DNA of 64,000 nt from Paratinospora sagittata (taxonomy: Eukaryota > Streptophyta > Magnoliopsida > Ranunculales > Menispermaceae). Below the pieces are notes generated by a model that ran no database searches, was not told the DNA's origin, and worked only from the letters and a program-made list of their open reading frames with translations. Location: positions 6,647,001 through 6,711,000 of the forward strand of contig CM069601.1 of assembly GCA_035771175.1 (NCBI GenBank), given 5' to 3'. Of the stretch, positions 279-54,283 are shown in pieces (position 1 is the first letter of the stretch; each line of letters starts with the position of its first letter). Position numbers and translations under genes: made by a program.

Positions 279-3200
279 ATGCAAACAAGAAAGAGAGGAA
301 GGCCACGTACTGTTCGTCCCGCAGTTGAGGCACCTCCTGAGATTCAGGAACCGACGCCTCCGACAACAGCACAGGCCACACCCAACACTGCTACTACATC
401 TGGGCAGGCAATACCATCCCCACCCGCACCCTTTGCCACGCCTTCAAGCATTGAAACCTTCTTCGCTGGTTTTATTGAGGCGATGAAGGCCACTGTTCAA
501 ACTGCCGTTCGGGAGACTGCAGCCAGTCAGGTTGCCATGGTTCAAGCACCTGTAAAATTTGGGTCGGAAGCTCAAACCGATCAGATTACTAAATACAAGC
601 GGCTACAACCTCTTACTTTCGATGGCACCATTGATCCTGATGAGGTGCAAAAGTGGCTGGATGAGTCAAAGAAGGCTCTTGATGCAATGAGAGTCGATGA
701 GACTCGTAAAATTCCACTAGCGACCTACCAACTTGTTGGTGGAGCAAACAAATGGTGGATCATAGTGAAAGAAGACCCACGGGTCAACATAGCCGATATG
801 ACTTGGCAACAGTTCGAGTCAATGTTTATTGATGAGTATTTTCCCAACGCCGTGACGAAGCAGAAGCGACAGGACTTCGCTAAGTTATATCAAGACACCA
901 TGACCGTCAGAGAATATGCTGGAAAATTCAAAGAATTATCCGTCTACTCTCTCTCCACCATCTCAATGGAGCAAGATAAGACTGAGAAATTTTATAATGG
1001 CCTTCGCCATGACATTCGGCAAGCCTTATCAATCTTGGATCTCAAGATTTACAAAGAGGTTGTTGACAAAGCCATGAGCTTTGAACAAGAGAAGCTCTTA
1101 CAGGAACAGCGAATGAATAAGGGCAAACGGCCTGCAACGTTTTCCCAACAAGGCATGCAACAGGGCAATAAGAAAAAACCCTACTACAATCAAAACCCAG
1201 CCCTCCCAGCCCCGGTTTCGAAGAATGAGGCCACAACACCTGCCGCTGAACCTTCTAACCCTAACCATCAGGGTTTCCAAAATCATGGCCGCGGAGGTCG
1301 TTATGGAAGAGGTGGCCGTCGAAACGACAATGGCAGAGGTGGTGGTCGACACCACATTCCGCATGGCCAGCAGAACAATCAGCATGGCCAACAGAAGCAT
1401 CCGCAGTATCATCAGACATGTTTTAACTGCGGCCAGAAAGGCCATGTAAAACATCTTTGTCCGCACCTTCAGCAACCTATTCCGGCTATTCCGGTCCAAC
1501 AAGCACCTCCTGCTGCTAATGCCCAACCCAGGCAGAACCAGCAGAACCAGGGTCAACGAAATCAGGGCCTAGCATTCGCCATCGCTCAACATCCTCTACC
1601 AGATAACAATGTCGTCGAAGGTACCTTTCCTTTGTTCAATACAATGGTGCATGTTTTGTTTGATTCAGGTGCTACACATTCTTTTATATCATCAGCATTG
1701 GTAAGACATTTAGGCCTGCATCCTGAACCCACAAACATCACACTCCATGTCACATCACCGTTCGGATCTGGTGCTGACGTTAACTTGCAGTGTTCTCGAT
1801 GTGAGCTTCGAATGTCAGAACATATCATATATGCCGATCTGTTTGTGATGGATTTTGACGACTTCGACATCATCCTTGGCATGGACTGGTTAACACCACT
1901 GGATGCAAAGATCGAATGTATGAAGAAGCAAGTTCAGTTAACCTTGCATACAGGAGAGTTGGTCAAGCTTCAGGGAACGAGGCAATGGATACACAAATCA
2001 ACCGTTGCCCTTCTCAAGGCACAACTTCGAGCTCTATCCCTTGGCAATGAAACCAACTCACCAGCACTATACCCTCTCGAAGTACATGATGTTCTAGTCA
2101 TATCTGAATTTCCAACGGTTTTTCTTAACGACCTTCCTGGTCTACCTCTAGTTAGGGAATTAAATTTTGAGATCAACCTCATACCTGGGACAGGGCCTAT
2201 CTCAATTCCACCATACAGAATGTCAAATGTCGAACTGGTCGAATTAGACAAACAACTTAAGGAATTAGAGAGTAATGGCTTCATCCGAAAGAGTTCATCA
2301 CCCTGGGGCGCTATAGTTCTATTTGTTCCCAAAAAAGATGGTTCGTTACGACTTTGCATCGATTATCGCAAGTTGAATAACGTCACCATCAAGAACAGAT
2401 ATCCATTACCCAGGATCGATGACTTGTTCGACCAACTTAGAGATGCCAAATTTTTCTCTAAGATTGATTTACATTCCGGTTATCACCAACTCCGGATCCG
2501 AGAGTCGGACATCACCAAGACGGCGTTCAGAACTCGGTACGGTCATTACGAGTTCTTAGTTATGCCATTCGGTCTAACAAATGCCCCTGCAACATTCATG
2601 GATTTGATGAATCGCATATTCAGGTTATACTTAGACCGATTTGTGGTGGTTTTTGTGGACGACATCTTGATATATTCCTCAACCGAGAAAGACCATAAAA
2701 TACATTTGAAGATAGTCCTCCAGACCTTGAGAAGCCACCAATTGTATGTCAAGTTGAGTAAGTGCGAATTTTGGGCAAAGCGGGTTCAATTCTTAGGCCA
2801 TGTGGTTTCAGGCAATGGCATTGAGGTCGATCCTTCTAAGGTTGAAGCAGTTTTAAACTGGAAGCAGCCTACCACTGTTACTCAGATTAGGAGTTTTCTT
2901 GGGTTGGCTGGCTATTACAGACGCTTTATCAAGGACTTCTCCAAGATTGTTGAACCTATGACCAAGCTCACTCGAAAAGACGTGCGATTTATCTGGAATC
3001 CCGCGTGTGAAGCATCATTTCAGGAATTGAAGAAACGCCTCACGACAGCACCTGTACTTATCACTCCAAGAAATGCAATTGGATTTTCATTATACACCGA
3101 CGCCTCTCTCCAAGGCTTAGGTGTCGTGCTAATGCAAGAAGGCCAAGTGGTTGCATATGCATCCAGACAACTGAAGATTCATGAGGGTAATTACCCAACG

Positions 3201-3566
3201 CATGACTTAGAACTTGCAGCTGTCGTATTTGCACTAAAGTTATGGCGTCATTACCTATACGGCGAACGGTTTGCGGTCTTATCGGATCACAAGAGTCTTA
3301 AGTACATATACACTCAGAGAGACCTTAACCTCCGCCAAAGACGATGGTTGGAATTCTTGAAAGATTATGACTTTCAACTCCAGTACCATCCCGGAAAGGC
3401 TAATGTTGTGGCCGATGCCCTGAGTAGAAAATCTTATGTTGTTTGCACTCTTAACTACGAAATGGGGAAGTTGGCTACAGAGTTGGAGAACTTTAACCTA
3501 CAACTGAACGTCGAAGGACCAAGACCACGACTCTCTCAATTATCAGTCAACTCTGAGCTCGTTTGA
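279..3566 (+). CDS. Ty3/gypsy (Tekay-type chromovirus) gag-protease-RT-RNase H open frame
   Basis: A 1095-codon open frame holding the first part of a single-frame gag-pol. A retrotransposon gag domain occupies about residues 95-260. A Gly/Arg/Gln/His-rich stretch follows, then a CCHC zinc knuckle starting at C381 ([14 protein letters not shown]). The aspartic protease motif FDSGATHSF is near residue 461. The reverse transcriptase has the FVDDILIYS active site (D794, D795), and RNase H begins near the LYTDAS motif (D941). In an intact element the product assembles particles and copies the RNA into DNA. The frame ends at a premature TGA (3564-3566), after which integrase continues in the same frame. 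The Tekay assignment rests on the chromodomain-like tail near 4850-4995 and the LTR style. Confidence 0.92.
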
Positions 3567-4998
3567 AAGATTTCAGCCGCTCAAGCCAATGACCCTATGT
3601 TAATGGAGAAATGAGACCTTCTACTTAGCGGCCAGGACCTTCCTCATTGGTCGGTCTCTGGAGACGGCACCGTTTGCTATAAAAAACGTCTCTGCTTACC
3701 GAACGATCCTGAGGTTCGTAAAGAAGTGCTTACTGAGATGCACTGTTCGAGGTACGCTATGCATCCTGGGGGTGACAAGATGTACAAGGATATCAAGCGA
3801 CAATTCTGGTTTTCTGGAATAAAGAAGGAAATTGCAGACTTCGTTGCTCGATGTCTCGTTTGCCAGCAAGTCAAGGCAGAATGAAGACTTCCCTCTGGAC
3901 TTCTCCAGCCGTTACCTATTGGAGAATGGAAATGGGAGAACATCGCATTTGATTTTGTCACAGCCTTACCTCGAAACAATAAAGGGCAAGATGCTATCTG
4001 GGTAATCATTGACAGACTTACAAAGTCTGCACACTTCTTGCCAATAAAGTTCTCGGATAATCCCGCCAAACTTGCAGAGCTCTATGAAAGAGAGATCGTA
4101 CGCCTTCATGGCATACCACTCACGATCGTCTCTAATCGAGACCCTCGATTCACATCCAACTTTTGGAAAAGCTTCTAGAATAGAATGGGTTCTAAGATCA
4201 CTATGAGCACAGCCTTCCACCCTCAGACTGATGGGCAGTCAGAGCGGCTTATCCAAATCTTAGAAGACATGTTACGCTATTGCATTTTGGACTTTAATGA
4301 CGGATGGGCAAAGTATTTGCATCTAGCTGAGTTTGCATACAACAATAGCTACCAAACTAGTATCGGCATGGCACCATACGAGGCTCTCTATGGTCGGCCT
4401 TGCAGATCTCCGGTATGCTGGTTAGATATGGCAGATCGACCGCAGTTAGGCCCTGAACTAGTTCAAGAGACTTCTGAGAAGATCACACTAGTAAAGGAAC
4501 GACTTTGCGTTGCACAAAGTCGACAGAAGAGCTATGCTGACAAGCGGAGACAACCTCTAGAATTTGCTAAGGGGGACTTTGTTTTTCTGAAAGTCTAGCC
4601 CACAAGAGGTGTCAAACCCTTTGGCATCAAAGGCAAACTCTCCCCACGATATATCGGTCCATTTCAGATCATTGAACGTATTGGCAAACTTGCTTGTCGT
4701 CTGTCCCTTCCATCGTCCATGCCTAAGGTTCATGACGTTTTTCACGTATCTATGCTTCGCAAGTATCGTCCTGATCCTTCGCATATCATCCCTTTAGTCG
4801 AGGTTCGGGTTGAGGAAGGAAATACGTATCAGGAGAAAGAAATCCAGATTTTAGATCGAAAAACTCAAGAACTACGACGACGTAGCATACCACTTGTGAA
4901 AGTGCTCTGGGATCACCACGGCGTAGAGGAAGCAACATGGGAACTATAAGCAACAATTAAACAGAAATACCCTGAATTGTTTTCTAGTACCAACTGAT
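3567..4998 (+). pseudogene. Integrase and chromodomain tail of the same gag-pol, broken by in-frame stops
   Basis: Continuation of the frame of 279-3566 without a frameshift. An HHCC zinc-binding segment lies near 3738-3870 (MHCSRYAMHPGGDKM up to CLVCQQ), the DDE integrase core near 3930-4420 (including FHPQTDGQSE), then a C-terminal domain ending PLVKVLWDHHGVEEATWE, typical of Tekay-type chromodomains. Stops interrupt it at 3612-3614 (TGA), 3882-3884 (TGA), 4176-4178 (TAG), 4596-4598 (TAG) and 4947-4949 (TAA). After the last one a KYPELF-type tail is still readable to a TGA at 4996-4998, probably the original end. Integrase cannot be made from this copy. Confidence 0.88.
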
Positions 4999-29216: not shown

Positions 29217-30426
29217 ATGGCTAATATAGCAGAGGATGTGGATGATGGTACAAATGGGGATGCGCCAAGCAACGAACATGACCTTGCCGAAGTTGAGATA
29301 GTTGAAGGGGATGAAGGGGAGCAGGTTGTTTGCATTATTCAGTGGTTATTACTTACTCCAAGACAACCACAACCCACTCAACGAAATTGTATTTTTCGAA
29401 CTAGATGTACCATTAACAAGAAGGCGTGCGACGTGATAATCGATAGTGGTAGTAGTGAAAACATTGTGTCAAAATCTTTGGTGAAGGCCATGCAACTCAA
29501 AACTGAAAAACATTCATCCCCTTACAAAATTAGTTGGGTTAAACGTGGTGTTAAAACCAAAGTGACCAAGTCTTGTCGGGTTCCTTTCTCCATCGGGAAA
29601 CACAACCAAGATGAAATTCGATGTGATGTTGTTGATATGGATGTGTGCCATTTTTATTGGGTCGGCCCTGGCAATTCGATGTTGGTGTTGTACACAAGGG
29701 TAAAAACAACACGTATACTTTCCAATGGAAGACTAGGCGCATTGTCTTCTTATCATTCCAACACAGGTTTACTTCTCTTTCTCGTGATTTGCATTATAAA
29801 AGTGTTTTACTAAATGTTACAGTAAAGGAATTTGGTGGCCACATTAAAAATGGAGGTCATCATAACATTACTTTGAAGGAGTAGATTCCCATTGAGTATG
29901 AGCACATTTCACCCATTGTGCAGCAACTGCTATCTAGATTTGCTTATGTGCACCCTACAGAACTTCCAAGTCGATTCCCACCTTTGCGAGATATACGACA
30001 TATGATTGATTTGCTTCCTAGAGCAAGTCTTCCCCACCTCCCTCACTATCAAATGAGCCCCAAAGAGCATGAGATACTGCAAAAATCAAGTTGATGAACT
30101 ACTTCGAAAAGGATTAGTGCGAGTTAGCATAAGTCCGTGTGCTATCCCTGCGCTTTTAACTCCAAAAAAAGACGGTACGTGGAGGATGTGTGTTGATACC
30201 AGAGCCATAAACAAGATCACCATCAAATACAAATTTTTTATTCCCCAATTGGAAGACATGTTTGATGGGTTGGGCGATTCTAGTGTTTTTTCCAAGCTTG
30301 ATCTTTGAAGTGGTTATCATCAAATTCGAATCTGACCCGATGATGAGTGGAAGACGGCCTTTAAAACTAGAGAAGGCCTCTATGAATGGTTGGTCATGCC
30401 TTTTGGGCTTAGCAACGCCCCTAGCA
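29217..30426 (+). pseudogene. Ty3/gypsy protease and RT remnant, first copy
   Basis: The first frame (29217-29813) contains the protease motif VIIDSGSSENIVSKSLV and DVVDMDVCHF, after which frame changes occur. The second (30069-30308) is the RT start ([33 protein letters not shown]), with a TGA right after SKLDL. RT continues to [10 protein letters not shown], where the solo LTR at 30427 interrupts it. The Reina-like assignment is from the protease and RT wording and is tentative. Confidence 0.85.
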
Positions 30427-33400
30427 TGTCGTGACCCCTCTTCGGGTGATGTCACAACCGGCACAGAACCCCAGATAATGTTACTTCATGACAAAACCTA
30501 AGGTCCTCGGCCTGTACCTAATACACAAATAATACATTTACAAACATAATCATCCTGTATATGACAATGTACAAAAAAACAACATAAGACTTACTCAAAA
30601 AATCCAACATGATTCAACACATAAACCATCACTTGAATAAACAAATATCTAATCTCCAAATGAAAGTCATATATATGTCATAACCATAAACCATCTATGT
30701 GATATGTATATATATTTACATTGTGATAGTTACATTCAAGACAAAAGAACAAAAAAAATAAAAAATAACTTTGTTCCCCATTTCTGACACCTACATCCAA
30801 GAAGAAAAAGGCTGCACACAGCGACCTAAGCCTTGCTTTTTTCCATTTGGATCTGAACCTGAGAAAATAGGAAAAAAGGGCGAGCTTCAATTAGCTAAGT
30901 GAAATATTCTCACAATTATAACTATAAATGCATTTATAAAACATGTATGCCATAGAGGAAACATTTACAAATACAAATGCATCAATTCAAGATAACATAC
31001 ATGAATCAAACTAAATCATGTAAATCATACATAAGCTTTTCCACAAAACATGCACATGCCTCAACTAAGGTCAATACCAGATAATTCTGCCTATACATTC
31101 ACCTGTTTTGCGTTATAGGGAATGACCAAAACAGAACATCTATTTCTCACCCTTCTACCCTTACATTCTTCACAAAGGAAAGACCATTCCACGGTGTACT
31201 AATCCAAGTAACACCAGCGAACCTCACTAAACACCTATGCCAAGCCTCAACCGCTTCGTTTTTACCGATGTAATCAACCTGGACCTTGATCGAATGAATG
31301 TCCACAACGGTGAATGGCTAATATAGCAGAGGATGTGGATGATGGTACAAATGGGGATGCGCCAAGCAACGAACATGACCTTGCCGAAGTTGAGATAGTT
31401 GAAGGGGATGAAGGGGAGCAGGTTGTTTGCATTATTCAGTGGTTATTACTTACTCCAAGACAACCACAACCCACTCAACGAAATTGTATTTTTCGAACTA
31501 GATGTACCATTAACAAGAAGGCGTGCGACGTGATAATCGATAGTGGTAGTAGTGAAAACATTGTGTCAAAATCTTTGGTGAAGGCCATGCAACTCAAAAC
31601 TGAAAAACATTCATCCCCTTACAAAATTAGTTGGGTTAAACGTGGTGTTAAAACCAAAGTGACCAAGTCTTGTCGGGTTCCTTTCTCCATCGGGAAACAC
31701 AACCAAGATGAAATTCGATGTGATGTTGTTGATATGGATGTGTGCCATTTTTATTGGGTCGGCCCTGGCAATTCGATGTTGGTGTTGTACACAAGGGTAA
31801 AAACAACACGTATACTTTCCAATGGAAGACTAGGCGCATTGTCTTCTTATCATTCCAACACAGGTTTACTTCTCTTTCTCGTGATTTGCATTATAAAAGT
31901 GTTTTACTAAATGTTACAGTAAAGGAATTTGGTGGCCACATTAAAAATGGAGGTCATCATAACATTACTTTGAAGGAGTAGATTCCCATTGAGTATGAGC
32001 ACATTTCACCCATTGTGCAGCAACTGCTATCTAGATTTGCTTATGTGCACCCTACAGAACTTCCAAGTCGATTCCCACCTTTGCGAGATATACGACATAT
32101 GATTGATTTGCTTCCTAGAGCAAGTCTTCCCCACCTCCCTCACTATCAAATGAGCCCCAAAGAGCATGAGATACTGCAAAAATCAAGTTGATGAACTACT
32201 TCGAAAAGGATTAGTGCGAGTTAGCATAAGTCCGTGTGCTATCCCTGCGCTTTTAACTCCAAAAAAAGACGGTACGTGGAGGATGTGTGTTGATACCAGA
32301 GCCATAAACAAGATCACCATCAAATACAAATTTTTTATTCCCCAATTGGAAGACATGTTTGATGGGTTGGGCGATTCTAGTGTTTTTTCCAAGCTTGATC
32401 TTTGAAGTGGTTATCATCAAATTCGAATCTGACCCGATGATGAGTGGAAGACGGCCTTTAAAACTAGAGAAGGCCTCTATGAATGGTTGGTCATGCCTTT
32501 TGGGCTTAGCAACGCCCCTAGCATGTCGTGACCCCTCTTCGGGTGATGTCACAACCGGCACAGAACCCCAGATAATGTTACTTCATGACAAAACCTAAGG
32601 TCCTCGGCCTGTACCTAATACACAAATAATACATTTACAAACATAATCATCCTGTATATGACAATGTACAAAAAAACAACATAAGACTTACTCAAAAAAT
32701 CCAACATGATTCAACACATAAACCATCACTTGAATAAACAAATATCTAATCTCCAAATGAAAGTCATATATATGTCATAACCATAAACCATCTATGTGAT
32801 ATGTATATATATTTACATTGTGATAGTTACATTCAAGACAAAAGAACAAAAAAAATAAAAAATAACTTTGTTCCCCATTTCTGACACCTACATCCAAGAA
32901 GAAAAAGGCTGCACACAGCGACCTAAGCCTTGCTTTTTTCCATTTGGATCTGAACCTGAGAAAATAGGAAAAAAGGGCGAGCTTCAATTAGCTAAGTGAA
33001 ATATTCTCACAATTATAACTATAAATGCATTTATAAAACATGTATGCCATAGAGGAAACATTTACAAATACAAATGCATCAATTCAAGATAACATACATG
33101 AATCAAACTAAATCATGTAAATCATACATAAGCTTTTCCACAAAACATGCACATGCCTCAACTAAGGTCAATACCAGATAATTCTGCCTATACATTCACC
33201 TGTTTTGCGTTATAGGGAATGACCAAAACAGAACATCTATTTCTCACCCTTCTACCCTTACATTCTTCACAAAGGAAAGACCATTCCACGGTGTACTAAT
33301 CCAAGTAACACCAGCGAAACATTTCCTAAATAACAAATAAGTAGAATGGTAATTCACACTCCTAGGTATTCAATCCAAAATATCCAAGGCAACCATGTGT

Positions 33401-35215: not shown

Positions 35216-36092
35216 TAGCAGGTTTGGGCTGACTGTATTGCTCATCTGGTTGTAGGTGATTTCCAAATTCATGAAGGATTCCTTTTCAGAGGGAACCAAC
35301 TATGCGTACCTCAAACATCTCTTTGTGACCATATCATTCATGATTTACATGCAGACAGGTTGCCAACACATACAGGTCAAGATAAAATTATTTCTCTCAT
35401 TGAGGATCATTTTTATTGGCCACACCTTCGTCGAGATGTTACACGATTTGTGCAACGTTGTGCCATTTGTCAAACGGCAAAGGGCCACTCCTAAAACACC
35501 GGTTTATATACCCCTTTGCCAATTCCTGCAAACATATTGGAGGATCTTAGTATGAACTTCATCTTGGGTCTACCTAAGATGACACACAGTGTTGACTTCG
35601 TCTTTGTGCTAATTGACCTATTTACGAAGATGGTACACTTTATTCCCTGTAAATGAGCAACTAATGCAAACATTATGGCACACCTATTCTTTCGGGACAT
35701 TATGCGACTCCATGGGGTCCCCGTTCCATTACTTCGAATCGTGACGTTAAATTCGTCAGTCACTTTTGGCGAGTTCTTTTGAAAAGGTTTGCCACTATTC
35801 GCAATTATAGCAGCGAATACCATCCCCAAACTGATGGCCAAACCGAAGTCATCAATTGCACCTTGGGTGGTATGATTCGTTGCATTGCCGGTGACAAGCC
35901 TAAGCAGCGGGACCTTGCCCTTTTTCAAGTAGAGTTCTCTCTCAACAGTATGGTCAATTGTTCCACAGGAAGGCCGCCATTTTCCATCGTTTGCACCAAG
36001 GCACCCAACCATACTCCGGACCTTGTCACGTAATCCAAACCGGGTAACCGCACTGCAGACAATTTAGCAGAGTCCATTCAACAAATGCAATA
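35216..36092 (+). pseudogene. Ty3/gypsy integrase remnant, split by the gene-capturing element
   Basis: Degenerate integrase: an HHCC region near 35310-35480 (HDLHAD, CNVV or RCAICQTAK depending on frame), core pieces near 35540-35760, and EYHPQTDGQTEVIN at 35818-35860. It is interrupted at 36092 by the 197-bp-LTR element, and its C-terminal part resumes at 38276. Confidence 0.82.
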
Positions 36093-36289
36093 TGTCTGCA
36101 TATAGAAAGTAATATATTCTATAAATATAGAAACAAGCTATATAGAAAGTAATAGATTCTGTAAATATAGAAACAATTTGTTTCCCTAATTTAGGACCTA
36201 ATTTTAGGATGTAATTGTCTATATATTACCTCTCTTTTAGAGAAGAATACATATATTTGAATTCTCTACAGAAACCCTATTGTCTAACA
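36093..36289 (+). repeat. 5' LTR (197 bp) of the gene-capturing element
   Basis: TGTCTGCATATAG to ATTGTCTAACA, followed directly by the primer-binding site. Contains an internal duplicated motif 'atatagaaagtaatagattctgtaaatatagaaaca' type (two near copies). Confidence 0.93.
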
Positions 36290-36301
36290 TGGTATCAGAG
36301 C
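36290..36301 (+). other. Primer-binding site of the gene-capturing element
   Basis: TGGTATCAGAGC, directly abutting the LTR end, as in most plant copia elements. Confidence 0.9.
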
Positions 36302-37834
36302 AGGTCTCGACAACTCCTGCTCGAAGATGTCGTTGATGAGAACTGGAACCCTAAAGCTGCAATTGAAGCTCCCTCTGCTCCTCTCAAGGCGAAGAAGAGA
36401 AAGCCCACTCCATTGAAAGAAGAGTCTTCTTCCGAAGAAGAAGAAGAAGAACAGAGAACGAAGGGTGAAAATGAAGAAGAAAACAAAGATGAAGACGACG
36501 ACGACGAAGAAGAAGAAGAGGAAGACAGAGAGGAAGAAGAAGAGGCAGAGGAGGAAGACGGAGACGAAGACGAGGAAGACGAAGAGGACGATGAGAAGAA
36601 AAAGGAGCAGAACGAGAGCTCCAAGCGCGAATCCATAAGGAAGCTTCTGGAACCTTTCAGAAAAGATCAGCTCATCGAGATTCTCAAAGAAGCTGCTCAA
36701 AAGAACCGCTCAATCATCGATCGGATAAGCCAGGCGGCGGAATCAGATCCGGTTCACCGAGAAATCTTCATCCACGGTCTCGGTTGGGACGCTACAAGTG
36801 AAATCCTACTCAATGTCTTCAAGCAGTACGACCAGATCGAGGATTGCAACGTCGTCACCGACAAGATCGCCTGTAAATCCAAAGGCTACGGTTTCGTTCT
36901 ATTCAAGACTCGCGATGGAGCTCGCAAGGCTCTGGTGGTTCATCCCCGTATCCCATATCCATCTCGTTGTAGTTTTCGAACCACCGGCCAGAACCCTAAT
37001 TCGAATAACCCTACCGAATCCTATGAATTGCACTTGAAATCGCTGTCTCTGAACAAAGAATCAGACAGCGCCCTTGTTGCCGAAGCTTCGTCGGATCAAG
37101 AGGATTCTAGCGGGGTCGTCAACGGATCTGTTGATACTGATTGCGATCAAAGGGATGAGATGCAGTTTCCGGTGCCGGAGGTGACGGCACTGGAAGTTCT
37201 TGAAGACGCTCGGGAGAGTTTTTCGACCAGCGAGGATGATTCGAATGAAGAAAGAGGCGTGTTTGAGGTTAATAATGGGTTTCTGAGTACTGATTGTATT
37301 GGAAGAGACGAGCCGTTGATCGGAGAGGAGGTTCCGAGTGATTTGACGGTTGGGATTGTCCGGAGGGGAAATTCAGAGATTGAATTGGATGCTTTGTCCA
37401 GCCCTAGCAGCAGTGGGTACGCTGGAGAGAGAGGCAGTAGCGGTGCGTCAACTACATCTGAGATTCAGGAGGTTGAAGATGGAAGTACTACTGATGGTGG
37501 TGAAGTTTCACAGGGTGATTCTATTAATGCAGTTCCAGATTCTCACACTCACGAGGAAGAGGCTTCAATTTCTTGGAGGAAAAGGAAGAAGCACTTTTTT
37601 GTGTTGAGTCACTCTGGAAAGCTAATATACTCTAGGTATGGAGATGAATATAGATTAGCAGGATTTTCAGCAACCTTGCAAGCAATTATTTCCTTTGTAG
37701 AGAATGGGGGAGATCGTGTCAAATTTGTAAGGGCTGGAAAACATCAGGTAGTTTTTCTTGTGAAGGGTCCAATTTATTTGGTCTGTATAAGTTGCACTGA
37801 AGAGCCATACGAGGCACCAAGGGGACAGTTATAG
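36302..37834 (+). CDS. Chimeric frame: UBA2-type RRM protein fragment fused to MON1 N-terminal fragment
   Basis: An open frame running from inside the 5' LTR (36215) to a TAG at 37832-37834, up to 539 codons. Counting from 36215, codons ~50-145 are Lys/Glu/Asp-rich. Codons ~145-245 match UBP1-associated protein 2 (nuclear hnRNP-like): [33 protein letters not shown] (RNP2), [11 protein letters not shown] (RNP1). Codons ~253-539 match MON1, the Rab7 exchange-factor subunit of vacuolar fusion: [57 protein letters not shown], ending at EAPRGQL. The first in-frame ATG is at 37160, so AUG initiation would give only a ~224-residue MON1 part; the joint protein would need a non-AUG start. RRM and MON1 domains are both partial. 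Expression unknown. Confidence 0.8.
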
Positions 37835-38073
37835 CTTGTTTCTCTCTCCATTGCTGCAGAAGTAGAATCTCGAAGCTTTTCTTTCCGAAACTCCGAAATT
37901 CTGAAACTCCGAAACTCCGAAATTCTGAACTCCGCAACTATATGGTTATGGCACCGTAAATTAGGACATCTTTCTTTTGGATATCTTAAGAAACTGCAAC
38001 CGCACCTTTTTTCAAGATTGAATGATAGACAAGTTGGGCATGATAGACATCTATGCACCAACTTGAGGGGAAG

Positions 38074-38270
38074 TGTCTACATATAGGAAGTAATATATTC
38101 TATAAATATAGAAACAAGCTATATAGAAAGTAATAGATTCTGTAAATATAGAAACAATTTGTTTCCCTAATTTAGGACCTAGTTTTAGGATGTAATTGTC
38201 TATATATTGCCTCTATTTTAGAGAAGAATACATATCTTTGAATTTTCTACAGAAACCCTATTGTCTAACA
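38074..38270 (+). repeat. 3' LTR (197 bp) of the gene-capturing element
   Basis: Same length and ends as the 5' LTR; seven substitutions by eye (about 3.6%). Confidence 0.93.
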
Positions 38271-38275
38271 CAATA

Positions 38276-38600
38276 TGATGTCTGACAGAAACTGTTCGAC
38301 GCTTCAGCCCGTTACAAGGAGCGAGCTGAGAAAGGTCGCCGATTGAAACTCTTTAATGAAGGGGACTTGGTTATGGTACATTTGAACCAGAATCATTTAC
38401 CTGCAGGTTTTCATACCAAGCTGCATGCTCGAAAGGTTGGAGCATTTCGCATTCAGAAGCGCATCAATGACAATGCCTATATTGTGGAGCTGCCCCCATA
38501 ATTTCAAATCTCTTCAACTTTCAATGTCTCTGTTCTGTTCTAATATCACCCTCCTGATGACACCCAAACTTGATCTCAGAAGTCGTGGTCGAGTTCTTCG
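38276..38600 (+). pseudogene. Ty3/gypsy integrase C-terminal remnant
   Basis: Continues the integrase cut at 36092. The pre-insertion reading QMQYD crosses the TSD, then KLFDASARYKERAEKGRRLK and FNEGDLVMVHLNQNHLPAGF, ending near VELPP with stops. The element's 3' LTR was not identified; purine-rich GGTAGGGGACAACAG at 38601-38615 could be its polypurine tract. Confidence 0.82.
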
Positions 38601-47600: not shown

Positions 47601-49416
47601 AATCAGTAGCATCTGATACATATTATTGACTTTCAGCAAAACTCCAAAATGCAGAGTCTGGAACAACCCTATCATTTCAAAACAGTGAGCTTTGAAACAA
47701 AAAATAATTTCACTCCAAGAGGGAAAATCAAAGATTAAAAAAAAATACAAAAAAAAAAAAAAATCTAAGTAAAGGCTTAAACCAAAACAAATCTCAAATA
47801 ATTCACAAAACTCAAAAAAAAAAGATTTTTTAAATAAATAATAGTAAAAAACTGATGGAAACATTTTTTTTTCATCGGACAACGTCCTTAAAGAGCACAA
47901 ATAACTAAAATTGAAGCTATCTCATGCAAAACAGGTTAAAAAAAAAATGTTAAAAGGTAAACTATATGTTAATTAACTCGTAGATCTACAAAGATGACAA
48001 TATATACTATGGACATTATATGAGTTCTATAAGCCACCCTTTTACCATTCAATTCAAATATATTAAAAGATTTATGCACACTGTATGCAATGAGCATTCT
48101 TAAAGACCATAAATATCATCTAAATTAGTGCATATTTAAAAATTTATTACGTTTTAGTGTTCATTATTTCTTATTCTAGTGTATTGAATGATATATGGAT
48201 CTTTCTAACAATTAGGTAAAACAAAAAAAAATTTGAACTTTTCTACCATGCCAATATTTTTTTATTAAAAAAGCTCTCTATATCATGTTGGATTTAACTT
48301 AGTTATATGTAACTAAAGTGTATGGAAAAGTCAGAATATTGGTTGCTCCTAGACTTTACTTCATTTCCATCTGCATAGACCTATACATGGGATTATCAAT
48401 GATCAAATCAATTTACAGCAAAAGAGATATATTAAGGACTAGAATCCAACTGCTCCCACGCTGACCAAAATATTGATGGATTAAGCTATAGAATCAGTCA
48501 AAGATTGATCCTCTTCCTGGCCATTATATACTCATTTGTTTCTAAGAAAAAACATTAATCCACATATTAACACCTCAAATACATAACAAGAACCAGCCAC
48601 TTCACATCCTGGACTCCTTCTAATCAATCTACAACACAAATCCACAAATCAAGAGAAATAAACAAGAACCAAAACTAGGGAATCTCAACTTGTTTAGATT
48701 TTAATAAGAACACGCACTGGATCCAATGAATCCAAATAGAATTTCAATAAAAACACCCAGGCAGCAAATAAAACTCGAGAAAATCAAATCGAAACCGCAA
48801 ATGAATGAAAACAAACAAACAAAAAACCTAAAAATCCACAAACCAATCCAGAAAACGACAAAAACAGCCGCCAAAATTCCTAGAAATGAAAACAAAACAA
48901 AAAAAATGGGCATACCCGAGCCAACGCAACCGCAGCACAAGCGAGATCAAGATGGCGCTTGAGCATCGCCTGATACTCCTCCGAATCAATAGACACATTC
49001 TGCCGTAGATCCAACAGCCCCGAAACACTACCACCATCACCAACAGGAGCAGCAACAGCTGAAGAAGAAACCAAAGGAGGATGACGAGGAAGGTCCTTGA
49101 TTTCAACAACTGCTCCTCCGATTCTCATAGAATTTGAAGACGAAGGTGCAATAACAGGCGTAGAACCCAAAGCCACAGACGCCATGGAAGAAGAAACACA
49201 AGAAGAAGAAGAAGACGATGATGAAGACGAAGAAGACGATGAAGACGATGAAGACGAAGAAGAAGGGAAGATTTCAACTTCTTCAAGGAATCTCTGAAAA
49301 GCCCATTCAGAAGAGCTTCGATTCATCTTATCTCCTCCAGATTTCGGCGAAGAAGAAGGATTCGTTGAATGCCAAAAAGGGTCTGAAATTTCTTCCACCG
49401 AGAACACCCTATCCAT
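41649..49416 (-). CDS. Group C bZIP transcription factor (CPRF2 / bZIP10-25-63 type), six exons
   Basis: Exons on the minus strand, in order: 49416-48916, 47413-47317, 45436-45226, 43922-43847, 43752-43627, 42080-41649 including TGA. All five introns are GT-AG and phases join without loss, giving 480 aa. The N-terminus [15 protein letters not shown] is typical of the CPRF2 group. Residues 52-72 are an unbroken serine run. The basic region is about 265-285 with N274-x7-R282 (NRESARRSR), which contacts ACGT-core DNA. The zipper has L292, L299, L306, I313, A320, L327, L334. The C-terminus [17 protein letters not shown] (430-446) resembles the SnRK1-phosphorylated motif of Arabidopsis bZIP63. Expected role: nuclear, dimerising regulator in energy, amino-acid and stress signalling. 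It is somewhat longer than the ~310-410 aa relatives I recall. No lesion seen. Confidence 0.93.
46272..46330. repeat. Tetranucleotide microsatellite in bZIP intron 2
   Basis: (CTAT)n turning into (GTAT)n, within the 1880-bp second intron. Likely length-polymorphic. Confidence 0.85.
49195..49270 (-). repeat. TCD-type microsatellite encoding a 21-serine run
   Basis: A trinucleotide tract (plus strand GAA/GAC/GAT) within exon 1 of the bZIP gene. Codons are mixed TCT, TCG and TCA, which should limit slippage compared with a pure repeat. Confidence 0.85.
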
Positions 49417-49802
49417 TTTCCTTTTCTCGTCTTTCTTTCTTTCTCTTTCTCTGCTCTAACAAAGTTGTATCTGAATTTATTTGGAGAGAGAGGAGAGAGG
49501 ATCGGATACGACTCGATCGCCCTTTCTTGTTTCTTCTGTCGCTTTAGAAAAGGGCCACGTGGGCCCATCGGATAAGTGTGGGCCCGTTGTTTGGGTTGTG
49601 GGGTCACGTGGATAATGTTGGAGGCCTAGTACAGGGAAAACCGGAACCAAAGCTTGCTATCCCAATTCCTAAAAATGGCTTATTAGAACCTTAGCCATAA
49701 GCTGTTGTTTGACAACAACAGCCCCGCCACCTATTGGGCACAAATGAGAAAAGAGGACCCGGCTCACGTGCGGTGGACTCGTGATTTTGTAGGTGGCACG
49801 TG
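49417..49802 (-). promoter_or_regulatory. bZIP 5' flank with CT-rich leader and four G-boxes
   Basis: Directly upstream of the start codon (49414-49416), on the minus strand, lies a purine-rich segment (GAAAGAAAGAAAGACG; CT-rich on the plus strand), expected in the 5' UTR. CACGTG occurs at 49555-49560 (in GCCACGTGGGC), 49605-49610, 49765-49770 and 49797-49802. GGGCCCA-type words (site II-like) lie near 49559-49566 and 49578-49584. CACGTG is the G-box bound by bZIP and bHLH proteins. No convincing TATA box was seen. Confidence 0.6.
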
Positions 49803-52258: not shown

Positions 52259-54283
52259 TGTAACATCCCGTAATTTTAATTAAATACATACGATAAATTA
52301 TACGTATATCGAGATGTATGATACGCGTATATACATGCGTGTAGGATATACGCGTGTATGAAATACATACTATATGTAAGGAATATGAGCAAATAAATAA
52401 AATTATTAAATAAAGAATATAAGTTTTATTAGTGGAATGAGTTGGTTAATTAGATACGTGAATTGAAGTTGAATTAACTTGATTAATAGATGGGAAAGTT
52501 CGTTTGTTAACTTGCATGAGGAGCATGGGATAAAATGGGAAGTTAGTTTGTTAACTTGCATGAGGAGCATGAAATCATTTGGATAAATAAATCTAAATAA
52601 AAAAAAATATATCATTCTAGTTGCTTCCAACGTGTGGCAACTAGAATAATATAAAAACAAAAGTAATAAAAAAATGAAGAATAAAGAAGAGAGATGATAT
52701 GAGTTGCAGCAACAAAAAAAAAAACAAGAGAAGCTGCAGAGAGAAGAACGAGAGAAACAGAGAGAAGAATGAGAAGAAGACAAAGAGAAAACGCGAGATT
52801 CGCGCCAAATTCGACTTGCCGGTAAACTATTTTTGCTATTTTTCATCGTAAAACTACTATCTAAGCTAGATGTAACGATTCTAGCGGACTAATTTTAGCT
52901 ATGGGAGCCGTTTTGCGGCGTTTTAACAAATTGGGGTTTTGACTCAACGTGAATAGAAAATCCGCTAGAAAGGTAAAAAAACGTTCTCTGGACTGTTGGG
53001 ACCCCGAATATGTGGTTAGATTCAATTTTATGATTTTTGGAGACCATTTGACAATTTTAATACAATTTACATCTTTCGGATGAATAGTAAAAATGAATAG
53101 TGAATAGTGAATAGTAAAAAATGAATAGTACTGTGAACGGTGATTTGATATTTTAGTAGCTACTGATATGGTAAATGATGATTCTAATGATACTCTATGG
53201 GTAATTTCAGTGTTTAAATTGAGGCTTAAGGGCATGGATAAACGCTTTTGAGGAAGCAATGACGTTTATTGTTGCTCGATTTTAGAGGTTGGCTTAGAAA
53301 ACCCGTGTAACCACTGTGAGTATAGTTTTCTTGATGTGGTTCTTGTATGACATTATACATATATAAAATGTTTGATTGTATGCATGGTATATTTATATAT
53401 ATACATTGAGTTTTATGGATCATGCAAACTGATTTTAATTGGAGTTTGTAATGATGAGGTTTTGCGAATCCTCATCGTCATTTCGTTAGGAATTAGACCC
53501 GGATGAGGTTTTGCGAGTCCTCATTGTCAGTAGGTCTGTCCTAACAAGGGTTGCGATCCTTGAAATGACTGTGAATTCGGTGATAAGAAGCTGCGTCTAC
53601 CTTGTACGGCTTAGACCCGCTCTCTTGCCTTGCGGAGGAGGGAGATTGTGCATTGTGTTATTGAAAACTCATACAATTTATGTTGTTGACATGTATGATA
53701 TATTCGTTGAATGATGCATGTGTTGACTAAGTGTTTGAAATGATTTTAAATGTCATATTTATCTAAATGTATATAATTGTCATATCAAGAACTATATTCA
53801 CTGAGCTGTTGTTTGCTCATCCCATTTCCTCCAATATTTCAGGTATTGAGTCGAAGGGAAAAAGAAAAATCCGTGAGTGATAATCACGTGAACCTTCGTC
53901 TGGTACGTGTATGTATGTTTGGAGGAAATAAATTCTATTTTTGTTATTTTGATATGTATAATTATCACACACTATATATATGTACTATCACCTAGATGGG
54001 TTGTGTGGTAATCTTATATAATGCTTGGGATGATGAAATGTATTTATCAGTTGGGAATTTACTTTGTGGAATGAATGAAATGAATGTGAGTGGAATGATC
54101 ATCTATATAGCTAGTTGATTGGATTTGAATTGTGGTATAAAAAAACAAAAATTATGTAAGTTTGGGATGGATTGTGAGAGTACGTGAAGGCTGACAGTGT
54201 ATTGTATACTGTATACGGGTATGTACAGTGTATAGTACACTGTGCCGGTCATGACGTCAGCCTACGTCAGGGGCGTCGTGACA
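52259..54283 (+). repeat. Solo LTR (2025 bp), same family as 9830-12075
   Basis: TGTAACATCCCGTAATTTTA to CAGGGGCGTCGTGACA. Shared blocks include 'ctaagctagatgtaacgatt' near 52861 and 'tttcgttaggaattagaccc' near 53480. It contains a short GAATAGT array (53085-53130). Flanks TTCTA and ATATG do not match, so the insertion site has been altered or the LTR is part of a larger rearrangement. Confidence 0.82.

Follow-up and report, generated by a model that had tools for sequence, protein, structure and literature searches.

How one retroelement comes to hold pieces of two unrelated host genes in a single open frame is the question raised by a 64,000-nucleotide (nt) stretch of the Paratinospora sagittata genome, here called the window (G000:C13:6647001-6711000), which we compared with the 1.29-Gb plant assembly to which it belongs. 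A long terminal repeat (LTR) element occupies window positions 36093-38270 and carries a UBA2-type piece followed by a MON1 piece in one open frame. A first-pass annotation had proposed that template switching during reverse transcription captured the two messenger RNAs (mRNAs) together. We consider it likely that the element in the window instead belongs to a Copia-derived, non-autonomous LTR family whose members acquire pieces of host mRNA and recombine them between copies. The parts of the element are listed here in window coordinates.

36088..36092, no strand: left target-site duplication (TSD) CAATA, a perfect 5-bp TSD by sequence comparison
36093..36289, +: 5' LTR, TG...CA, 197 nt
36290..36301, +: TGGTATCAGAGC, directly 3' of the 5' LTR, presumably a primer-binding site of the tRNA-iMet type
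36290..36338, +: element leader, also in family copies without UBA2
36338..36937, +: captured UBA2 fragment, N-terminal part with the first RRM, no in-frame ATG
36927..36937, +: AGGCTCTGGTG, 11 nt common to UBA2 and the element, where UBA2 meets the linker
36938..36980, +: the element's own 43-nt linker, spacing UBA2 and MON1, also in copies without either gene
36981..37841, +: captured MON1 fragment, exons 1-5, introns gone
37160..37162, +: first in-frame ATG of the frame 36215-37831, within MON1
37555..37748, +: four MON1 intron-loss points, after 37555, 37635, 37707 and 37747
37832..37834, +: TAG stop, G-to-T relative to parent MON1
37842..38073, +: element 3' region (tail) with tandem TCCGAAAC-type repeats
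37937-38071, +: Copia GAG-pre-integrase domain remnant in the tail (gag_pre-integrs, E 4.3e-9)
about 38060-38073, +: purine-rich tract directly 5' of the 3' LTR, which we take to be the polypurine tract
38074..38270, +: 3' LTR, 197 nt
38271..38275, no strand: right TSD CAATA
38343..38498, +: remains of an older Gypsy-type element, the insertion target (SH3_Tf2-1)

The annotation's claim of an LTR retroelement is borne out by the paired 197-nt LTRs, which differ at 7 positions, and by the perfect TSD, and its copia derivation by the gag_pre-integrs match in the tail. The two priming sites that it named have TGGTATCAGAGC and the purine tract in the expected places, and their functional names are our presumption. 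With TG...CA paired LTRs, a 5-bp TSD and a Copia protein remnant, the window element is, as judged from its sequence, a Copia-derived, non-autonomous LTR retrotransposon. It does not qualify as an autonomous Copia element, which would have reverse transcriptase, RNase H and integrase, its internal region of 1,784 nt being explained by leader, UBA2, linker, MON1 and tail. TRIMs are very short elements with an internal region of a few hundred bases, and the window copy, with its gene pieces, resembles them in LTR length alone. TR-GAG elements are non-autonomous LTR elements with a gag frame between the LTRs and no pol; the relatives L041-L044 and L046-L049 are like them in keeping a Copia gag region (Pfam-tested for L042 and L043, with Retrotran_gag_2/3 in L042), whereas the window copy and L045 lack gag and the window copy holds host-gene pieces. 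An insertion-free allele, sought with the left flank, was not found: only the window matches closely, the next long matches reaching at most 68%, and an empty site is not demonstrable for this copy of the Gypsy-type target.

Searching the same genome placed the MON1 parents on C5/C18 and the UBA2 parents on C2 (three places) and C15. The annotation was therefore right that two unrelated host genes are involved, and an origin from adjacent parent genes is rejected because the parents sit on different chromosomes. The MON1 match begins 22 nt downstream of the parent ATG and is 97.6% identical to parent exon 1. Four parent introns, of 3358, 161, 110 and 1637 bp, are absent from the element; their borders could be placed as one GC-AG and three GT-AG pairs, with a split shifted by 1-2 nt fitting one base better at the second. 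Since four introns are gone, spliced RNA was the source, and the proposed mRNA capture of MON1 thus holds on comparison with parent exon borders. The UBA2 fragment is 86% identical, with insertions and deletions (indels), to positions 3855-4502 of the parent gene L040; because this parent segment is contiguous and intronless, it is uninformative about a spliced-mRNA origin. Exon 1 of MON1 is nearly identical on C5 and C18, where it departs from the window piece at 14 and 15 positions, and matches are likewise paired across other large contigs, including C1/C14 and C3/C16, from which we infer that paired contigs represent two haplotypes. Similar extra copies of the UBA2 gene lie on C2 at 59.36, 59.54 and 62.26 Mb.

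Further copies of the element do exist in the genome. We read 18 loci with UBA2 and/or MON1 and nine more chosen by LTR or tail similarity, blind to gene content (L041-L043 as LTR pairs and six tail matches), making 27; the family size is a lower bound, as 40 of 460 tail candidates and 40 of 298 LTR candidates were scored. Eight copies are double and represent four sites (C13; C11/C23; C14 with two on C1; C3/C16), three of which have perfect TSDs. MON1 copies number four, at three sites (C12; C5/C18; C24), and UBA2 copies six, at five sites, two on C26 having common flanks. The two genes occupy separate sites in one Copia-derived element, and junction probes found all four fillings among the 27 loci: both sites empty in eight (L041-L045, L047-L049), site 1 empty with MON1 in four (L024, L036, L037, L038), UBA2 at site 1 and nothing at site 2 in two (L031, L032), and UBA2 with MON1 in eight. 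The other five (L030, L033, L034, L035, L046) do not display both sites. Two element insertions occur with a similar extra copy on their own chromosome, at C1 44.84 and 45.63 Mb and at C26 1.03 and 3.47 Mb. The MON1 copy L036/L037 (C5/C18) has its internal part inverted among three LTR pieces with one intact TSD, AAGAA, an arrangement that perhaps reflects an intramolecular event in the complementary DNA (cDNA).

The joins between these modules carry much of the argument. By direct string the leader-UBA2 join is identical in 10 of 11 copies, L032 being detected through its probe alone. The UBA2-linker join is the same in 8/8 copies and the linker-MON1 join in 11 of 12 (L038 again through the probe alone), where it holds TTCGAA(C/T)CAC, bases not found there in the parent gene. 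Identical joins, odd bases included, point to exchange between elements. They also bear on the proposal that one reverse-transcription event captured the UBA2 and MON1 mRNAs jointly and fused them in frame. Both pieces do lie within one element and one frame, as such an event would leave them, but the element's 43-nt linker separates the genes, single-gene elements have the same joins, and the MON1-tail join of the MON1-only copy L024 is nearer to the empty element than the join of the doubles is. We reject a single double capture because single-gene copies share the joins, and joint capture, the part of the first-pass annotation that fails, appears very improbable to us.

Shared changes also bear on the order of events. 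At the MON1-tail join the eight doubles have two common changes (CTCTCC, with one copy changed further), and the type seen in L024 and the empty elements is CCGCC or CTGCC. Thus, the MON1-only form is likely the earlier state and the doubles one derived group. The G-to-T stop is present in L024 as well. In the UBA2 part, which was aligned without the gene row L019, the doubles agree at column 103 with the UBA2-only copies L031, L032 and L034 and differ from L030, L033, L035 and the genes; column 185 agrees with this grouping but falls in an unreliable acidic repeat.

The two-gene form is most likely a recombinant of single-gene elements. The core element consists of LTR, leader, segment A, linker and tail, with Copia gag in many copies, and would be reverse-transcribed by enzymes from elsewhere. 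During this synthesis the polymerase may at times leave the element RNA at a short match, copy part of a packaged host mRNA and then return, which would leave a spliced gene piece inside the element. Four introns were lost upon capture of MON1, three from a coiled-coil gene described below, and one from an antisense piece of a presumably golgin-like gene. Two differently loaded element RNAs could also be copied into one cDNA. For the double form, a MON1 element (A-linker-MON1) would have been joined to a UBA2 element (leader-UBA2) at AGGCTCTGGTG, minus-strand synthesis on the MON1 element RNA slipping at the 11-nt word onto the UBA2 element RNA, and the recombinant would then have moved as one unit to four or more sites. 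AGGCTCTGGTG is the longest word that the captured UBA2 exon region has in common with the first 470 nt of L042, and an overlap of at least 11 nt arose in 5 of 200,000 random position pairs. A word of this length at the UBA2-linker join fits the trace that template switching would leave. The overlap is about 2 nt at the leader-UBA2 join and TTCG, with a small adjoining change, at the linker-MON1 join. Template switching, as proposed in the annotation, is therefore the mechanism that fits best, and what does not survive is its application to both host mRNAs at once.

Alternatively, copies already integrated in the genome could have exchanged modules as DNA, through ectopic gene conversion, with no template switching inside virus-like particles. 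Copies have some 50 nt of leader, the 43-nt linker and the LTRs in common, which might serve such conversion, and conversion would also leave TSDs intact. The UBA2-linker join, however, has just 11 nt of identity, with differing flanks, and 11 nt is generally too short for homologous recombination; moreover, intron loss from the MON1, coiled-coil and golgin-like genes shows that capture involves an RNA step. We regard gene conversion as unlikely.

Several points weigh against recombination between mRNA-loaded elements, among them that the exchange could have occurred at the DNA level. The UBA2/empty combination represents a single insertion, as L031 and L032 have their flanks in common, and that insertion also contains the end of segment A along with a 14-3-3 piece. 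UBA2 column 581 places the doubles with L030 and L033 rather than with L031/L032, and columns 535 and 606 are mixed. Copies share MON1 changes at columns 42, 121 and 234, yet single capture is unproven by them: Stephania proteins have the element's residue at columns 42 and 234, where the change may lie in the parent, and at column 121 the parent's residue occurs in two Stephania proteins and the element's in Macleaya. We dropped these columns as proof of a single capture since the outgroups suggest that some of the changes are parental; the common stop and the odd bases at the linker-MON1 join take their place in the argument. Trees of the UBA2 part (without the acidic repeat columns) and of the MON1 part are star-like, giving no order of capture. 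No reverse transcriptase/integrase partner was found in the one long LTR pair scanned for some of its frames (L043, 6.6 kb), which gave gag, pre-integrase and OB-fold matches and nothing else. On balance, the evidence suggests that modules moved between elements.

Divergence between paired LTRs, as the Kimura two-parameter distance (K80), was computed for 16 copies, with L033, L037 and L041-L049 left out. It is 0.037 in the window copy, 0.005 in C3/C16 and 0.037-0.060 in the remaining doubles, compared with 0.03-0.13 in single-gene copies. The spread from 0.005 to 0.060 among doubles implies repeated transposition after the join. At a eudicot rate of 6.5e-9 substitutions per site per year (PMC12346261), the window insertion would be about 2.8 million years old and C3/C16 about 0.4, rough figures given 1 to 11 differences per LTR pair in the doubles and given that a single insertion yields 0.037, 0.048 and 0.058 at its three loci, two on C1 and one on C14.

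Does the fused frame encode anything? The frame 36215-37831 stays open over 539 codons. Two Pfam domains are recognised in it, RRM_1 at E 2.4e-11 and, at E 3.3e-17, Fuz_longin_1, which is the first of the longin domains in FUZ, MON1 and HPS1. Plant proteins related to it bear the names UBP1-associated protein 2A/2B and MON1, the top three being Stephania MON1, in agreement with the domain identities first assigned. A new functional gene of the kind proposed for maize Bs1, whose product here would be a UBA2-MON1 protein, would be consistent with this open frame and with the amplification of the element form. Yet the UBA2 part has no start codon and no in-frame ATG precedes 37160, which argues against translation of the hybrid frame. 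The stop at 37832 ends the frame, and its G-to-T change is common to 9/9 element copies reaching the position; it is a change within elements because outgroup proteins have glutamate (6/8) or aspartate (2/8) there. In the window MON1 piece 15 changes are nonsynonymous and 3 synonymous, which gives a ratio of nonsynonymous to synonymous rates (dN/dS, calculated for the MON1 part only) of 1.46, and the other 11 copies are scattered around 1 (0.47-2.56). The other seven of the eight doubles each have one or more single-base indels in the MON1 part, where the window copy has none, and L022, L023, L026 and L027 have additional stops there. No protein spanning both halves occurs among the 120 of 808 matches listed, in which query coverage reaches 57%.

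With dN/dS around 1 and stops and indels in other copies, the MON1 part does not show the purifying selection that would be expected of a domesticated chimeric gene. For the missing ATG, the shared stop and the absent constraint we reject a functional fusion gene, a reading to which we give even less credence than to joint capture. The window copy gives no sign, in its sequence, of working protein production, and the fused frame is probably cargo. It would be inherited from the two parental frames with a roughly one-in-three frame match, as neutral cargo. Thus the single-frame fusion noted at the outset is real as a 539-codon open frame, while its UBA2 part lacks a start and its MON1 part shows no sign of selection; a clean two-gene open frame in an element is by itself no evidence of a new gene.

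UBA2 and MON1 are two of ten host genes that we found captured in this family, besides a weak peroxiredoxin match. Of the nine loci chosen blind to gene content, seven contain a host-gene piece that passes the Pfam cut-off; L042 has one identified through its gene on C4, and L046 has a weak match only. In sense orientation are class-III aminotransferase in L045 (E 1.1e-7, barely over the cut-off) and peroxiredoxin in L046 (E 8e-6, below it). The 14-3-3 piece beside UBA2 in L031 matches in two frames (Pfam, E 7.2e-31 and 4.3e-18), and L032 holds the same stretch at 97.6%. Antisense pieces occur in eight copies (L035, L041, L042, L043, L044, L047, L048 and L049, at element positions 237-764): a kinase in L035 (E 5.6e-7), SAUR in L041 (E 1.1e-18), Es2 in L044 and L048 (E 4.3e-39 and 7.8e-27), and an OB-fold gene in L047, L043 and L049 (E 3.9e-21, 2.7e-17 and 1.4e-18). 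The antisense piece of L042, which has no Pfam match and which we take to be golgin-like, has lost one intron of its C4 gene, and thus a spliced RNA was copied in opposite orientation. The repeated OB-fold and Es2 pieces are probably single captures copied on. Sense pieces would fit minus-strand switching, and antisense pieces plus-strand switching.

The coiled-coil gene piece stands behind UBA2 in L034 and behind MON1 in L038, 95.6% identical over 1,235 nt. Its gene has copies on C8 and C20 with 94-95% protein identity, and related plant proteins bear the name 'RNase P subunit p38-related' or are uncharacterised. Three introns have been lost, and the module (L034 393-1657, L038 576-1840) is circularly permuted, running from gene position 312 to 3349 in spliced form and then from 231 to 311, so that exon 4 runs into the gene's 5' region. 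The circle opens between 311 and 312, and therefore the copy's entry and exit lie at one point. Ordinary circular RNA is unsupported as its source, since the inner join is mid-exon, with a 3-nt match, and there is no back-splice at exon ends. TTGA at the L034 join comprises letters that also end MON1 at the L038 join, a hint that L034 may derive from a MON1-coiled-coil element. Similar extra copies of the coiled-coil gene lie on C20 at 1.46, 1.87 and 2.46 Mb; like the other same-chromosome extra copies (C2, C1, C26), they may be either segmental duplications or assembly redundancy.

Taken further, and with less assurance than we attach to recombination between copies, we lean toward viewing the family as a standing gene-shuffling system, in which spliced mRNA pieces would be loaded in either orientation and reassorted by template switching. 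Multi-gene chimeras would then arise from recombination of single-gene elements, not from rare double captures, and the permuted coiled-coil module leaves room for circular or self-jumping RNA templates.

Multi-gene capture by an LTR element has precedents in maize Bs1 and soybean GmaRetroS15, and unlinked parents and the removal of four MON1 introns place the window element with them. Bs1 is an LTR element with three host-gene pieces forming a chimeric gene, described as three transductions, transcribed and translated (PMC13317346). The window element is like it in carrying several host-gene pieces and unlike it in that different copies combine the modules in several ways and that a start codon is missing from the UBA2 part. 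GmaRetroS15 is a small TRIM with exon-only pieces of three genes; the gene-carrying soybean TRIMs have both LTRs, 5-bp TSDs and lengths of 1.2-1.4 kb (PMC4717578). Our element shares both LTRs, a 5-bp TSD and intron-free gene pieces with GmaRetroS15, the accessible part of whose account reports no exchange of captured modules between copies (PMC4717578). Host-gene pieces within LTR elements are also known from maize B73, where 425 intact elements contain them; as far as the accessible part of that survey goes, and under its conditions, no element held pieces of more than one standard nuclear gene (PMC2774510). Pack-MULEs and Helitrons also collect and combine host-gene pieces (PMC13317346), but these are DNA transposons, and Pack-MULEs contain exons and introns (PMC4717578), unlike the intron-free pieces captured by the window family.

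Gene capture by LTR elements is known, then, and multi-gene chimeras are reported, in the source material available to us, as few cases. We found no report of reassortment of captured genes between LTR copies in titles and abstract openings of the open-licence literature, which does not establish its absence from print. Because single-gene, empty and combined forms coexist in one genome, the order of steps is directly readable here, as are the join rules, which concern short matches, orientation and spliced templates, and the production of exon-shuffled sequences by retroelements becomes testable.

Some minor features accompany these results. L043 (C1:5353850-5360760), 6.6 kb long, has a block resembling element positions 371-2688 of L030 twice, in reverse orientation, flanking the core, and an open frame at window 52409-52888 (-) resembles the L030/L043 block by eye. 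Elsewhere in the window, two 198-codon frames at 29217-29810 and 31314-31907 (+) lie 2,097 bp apart with their first 70 residues identical, which suggests a duplication. A 191-codon open frame at 48883-49455 (-) presumably resembles the start of a bZIP transcription factor gene.

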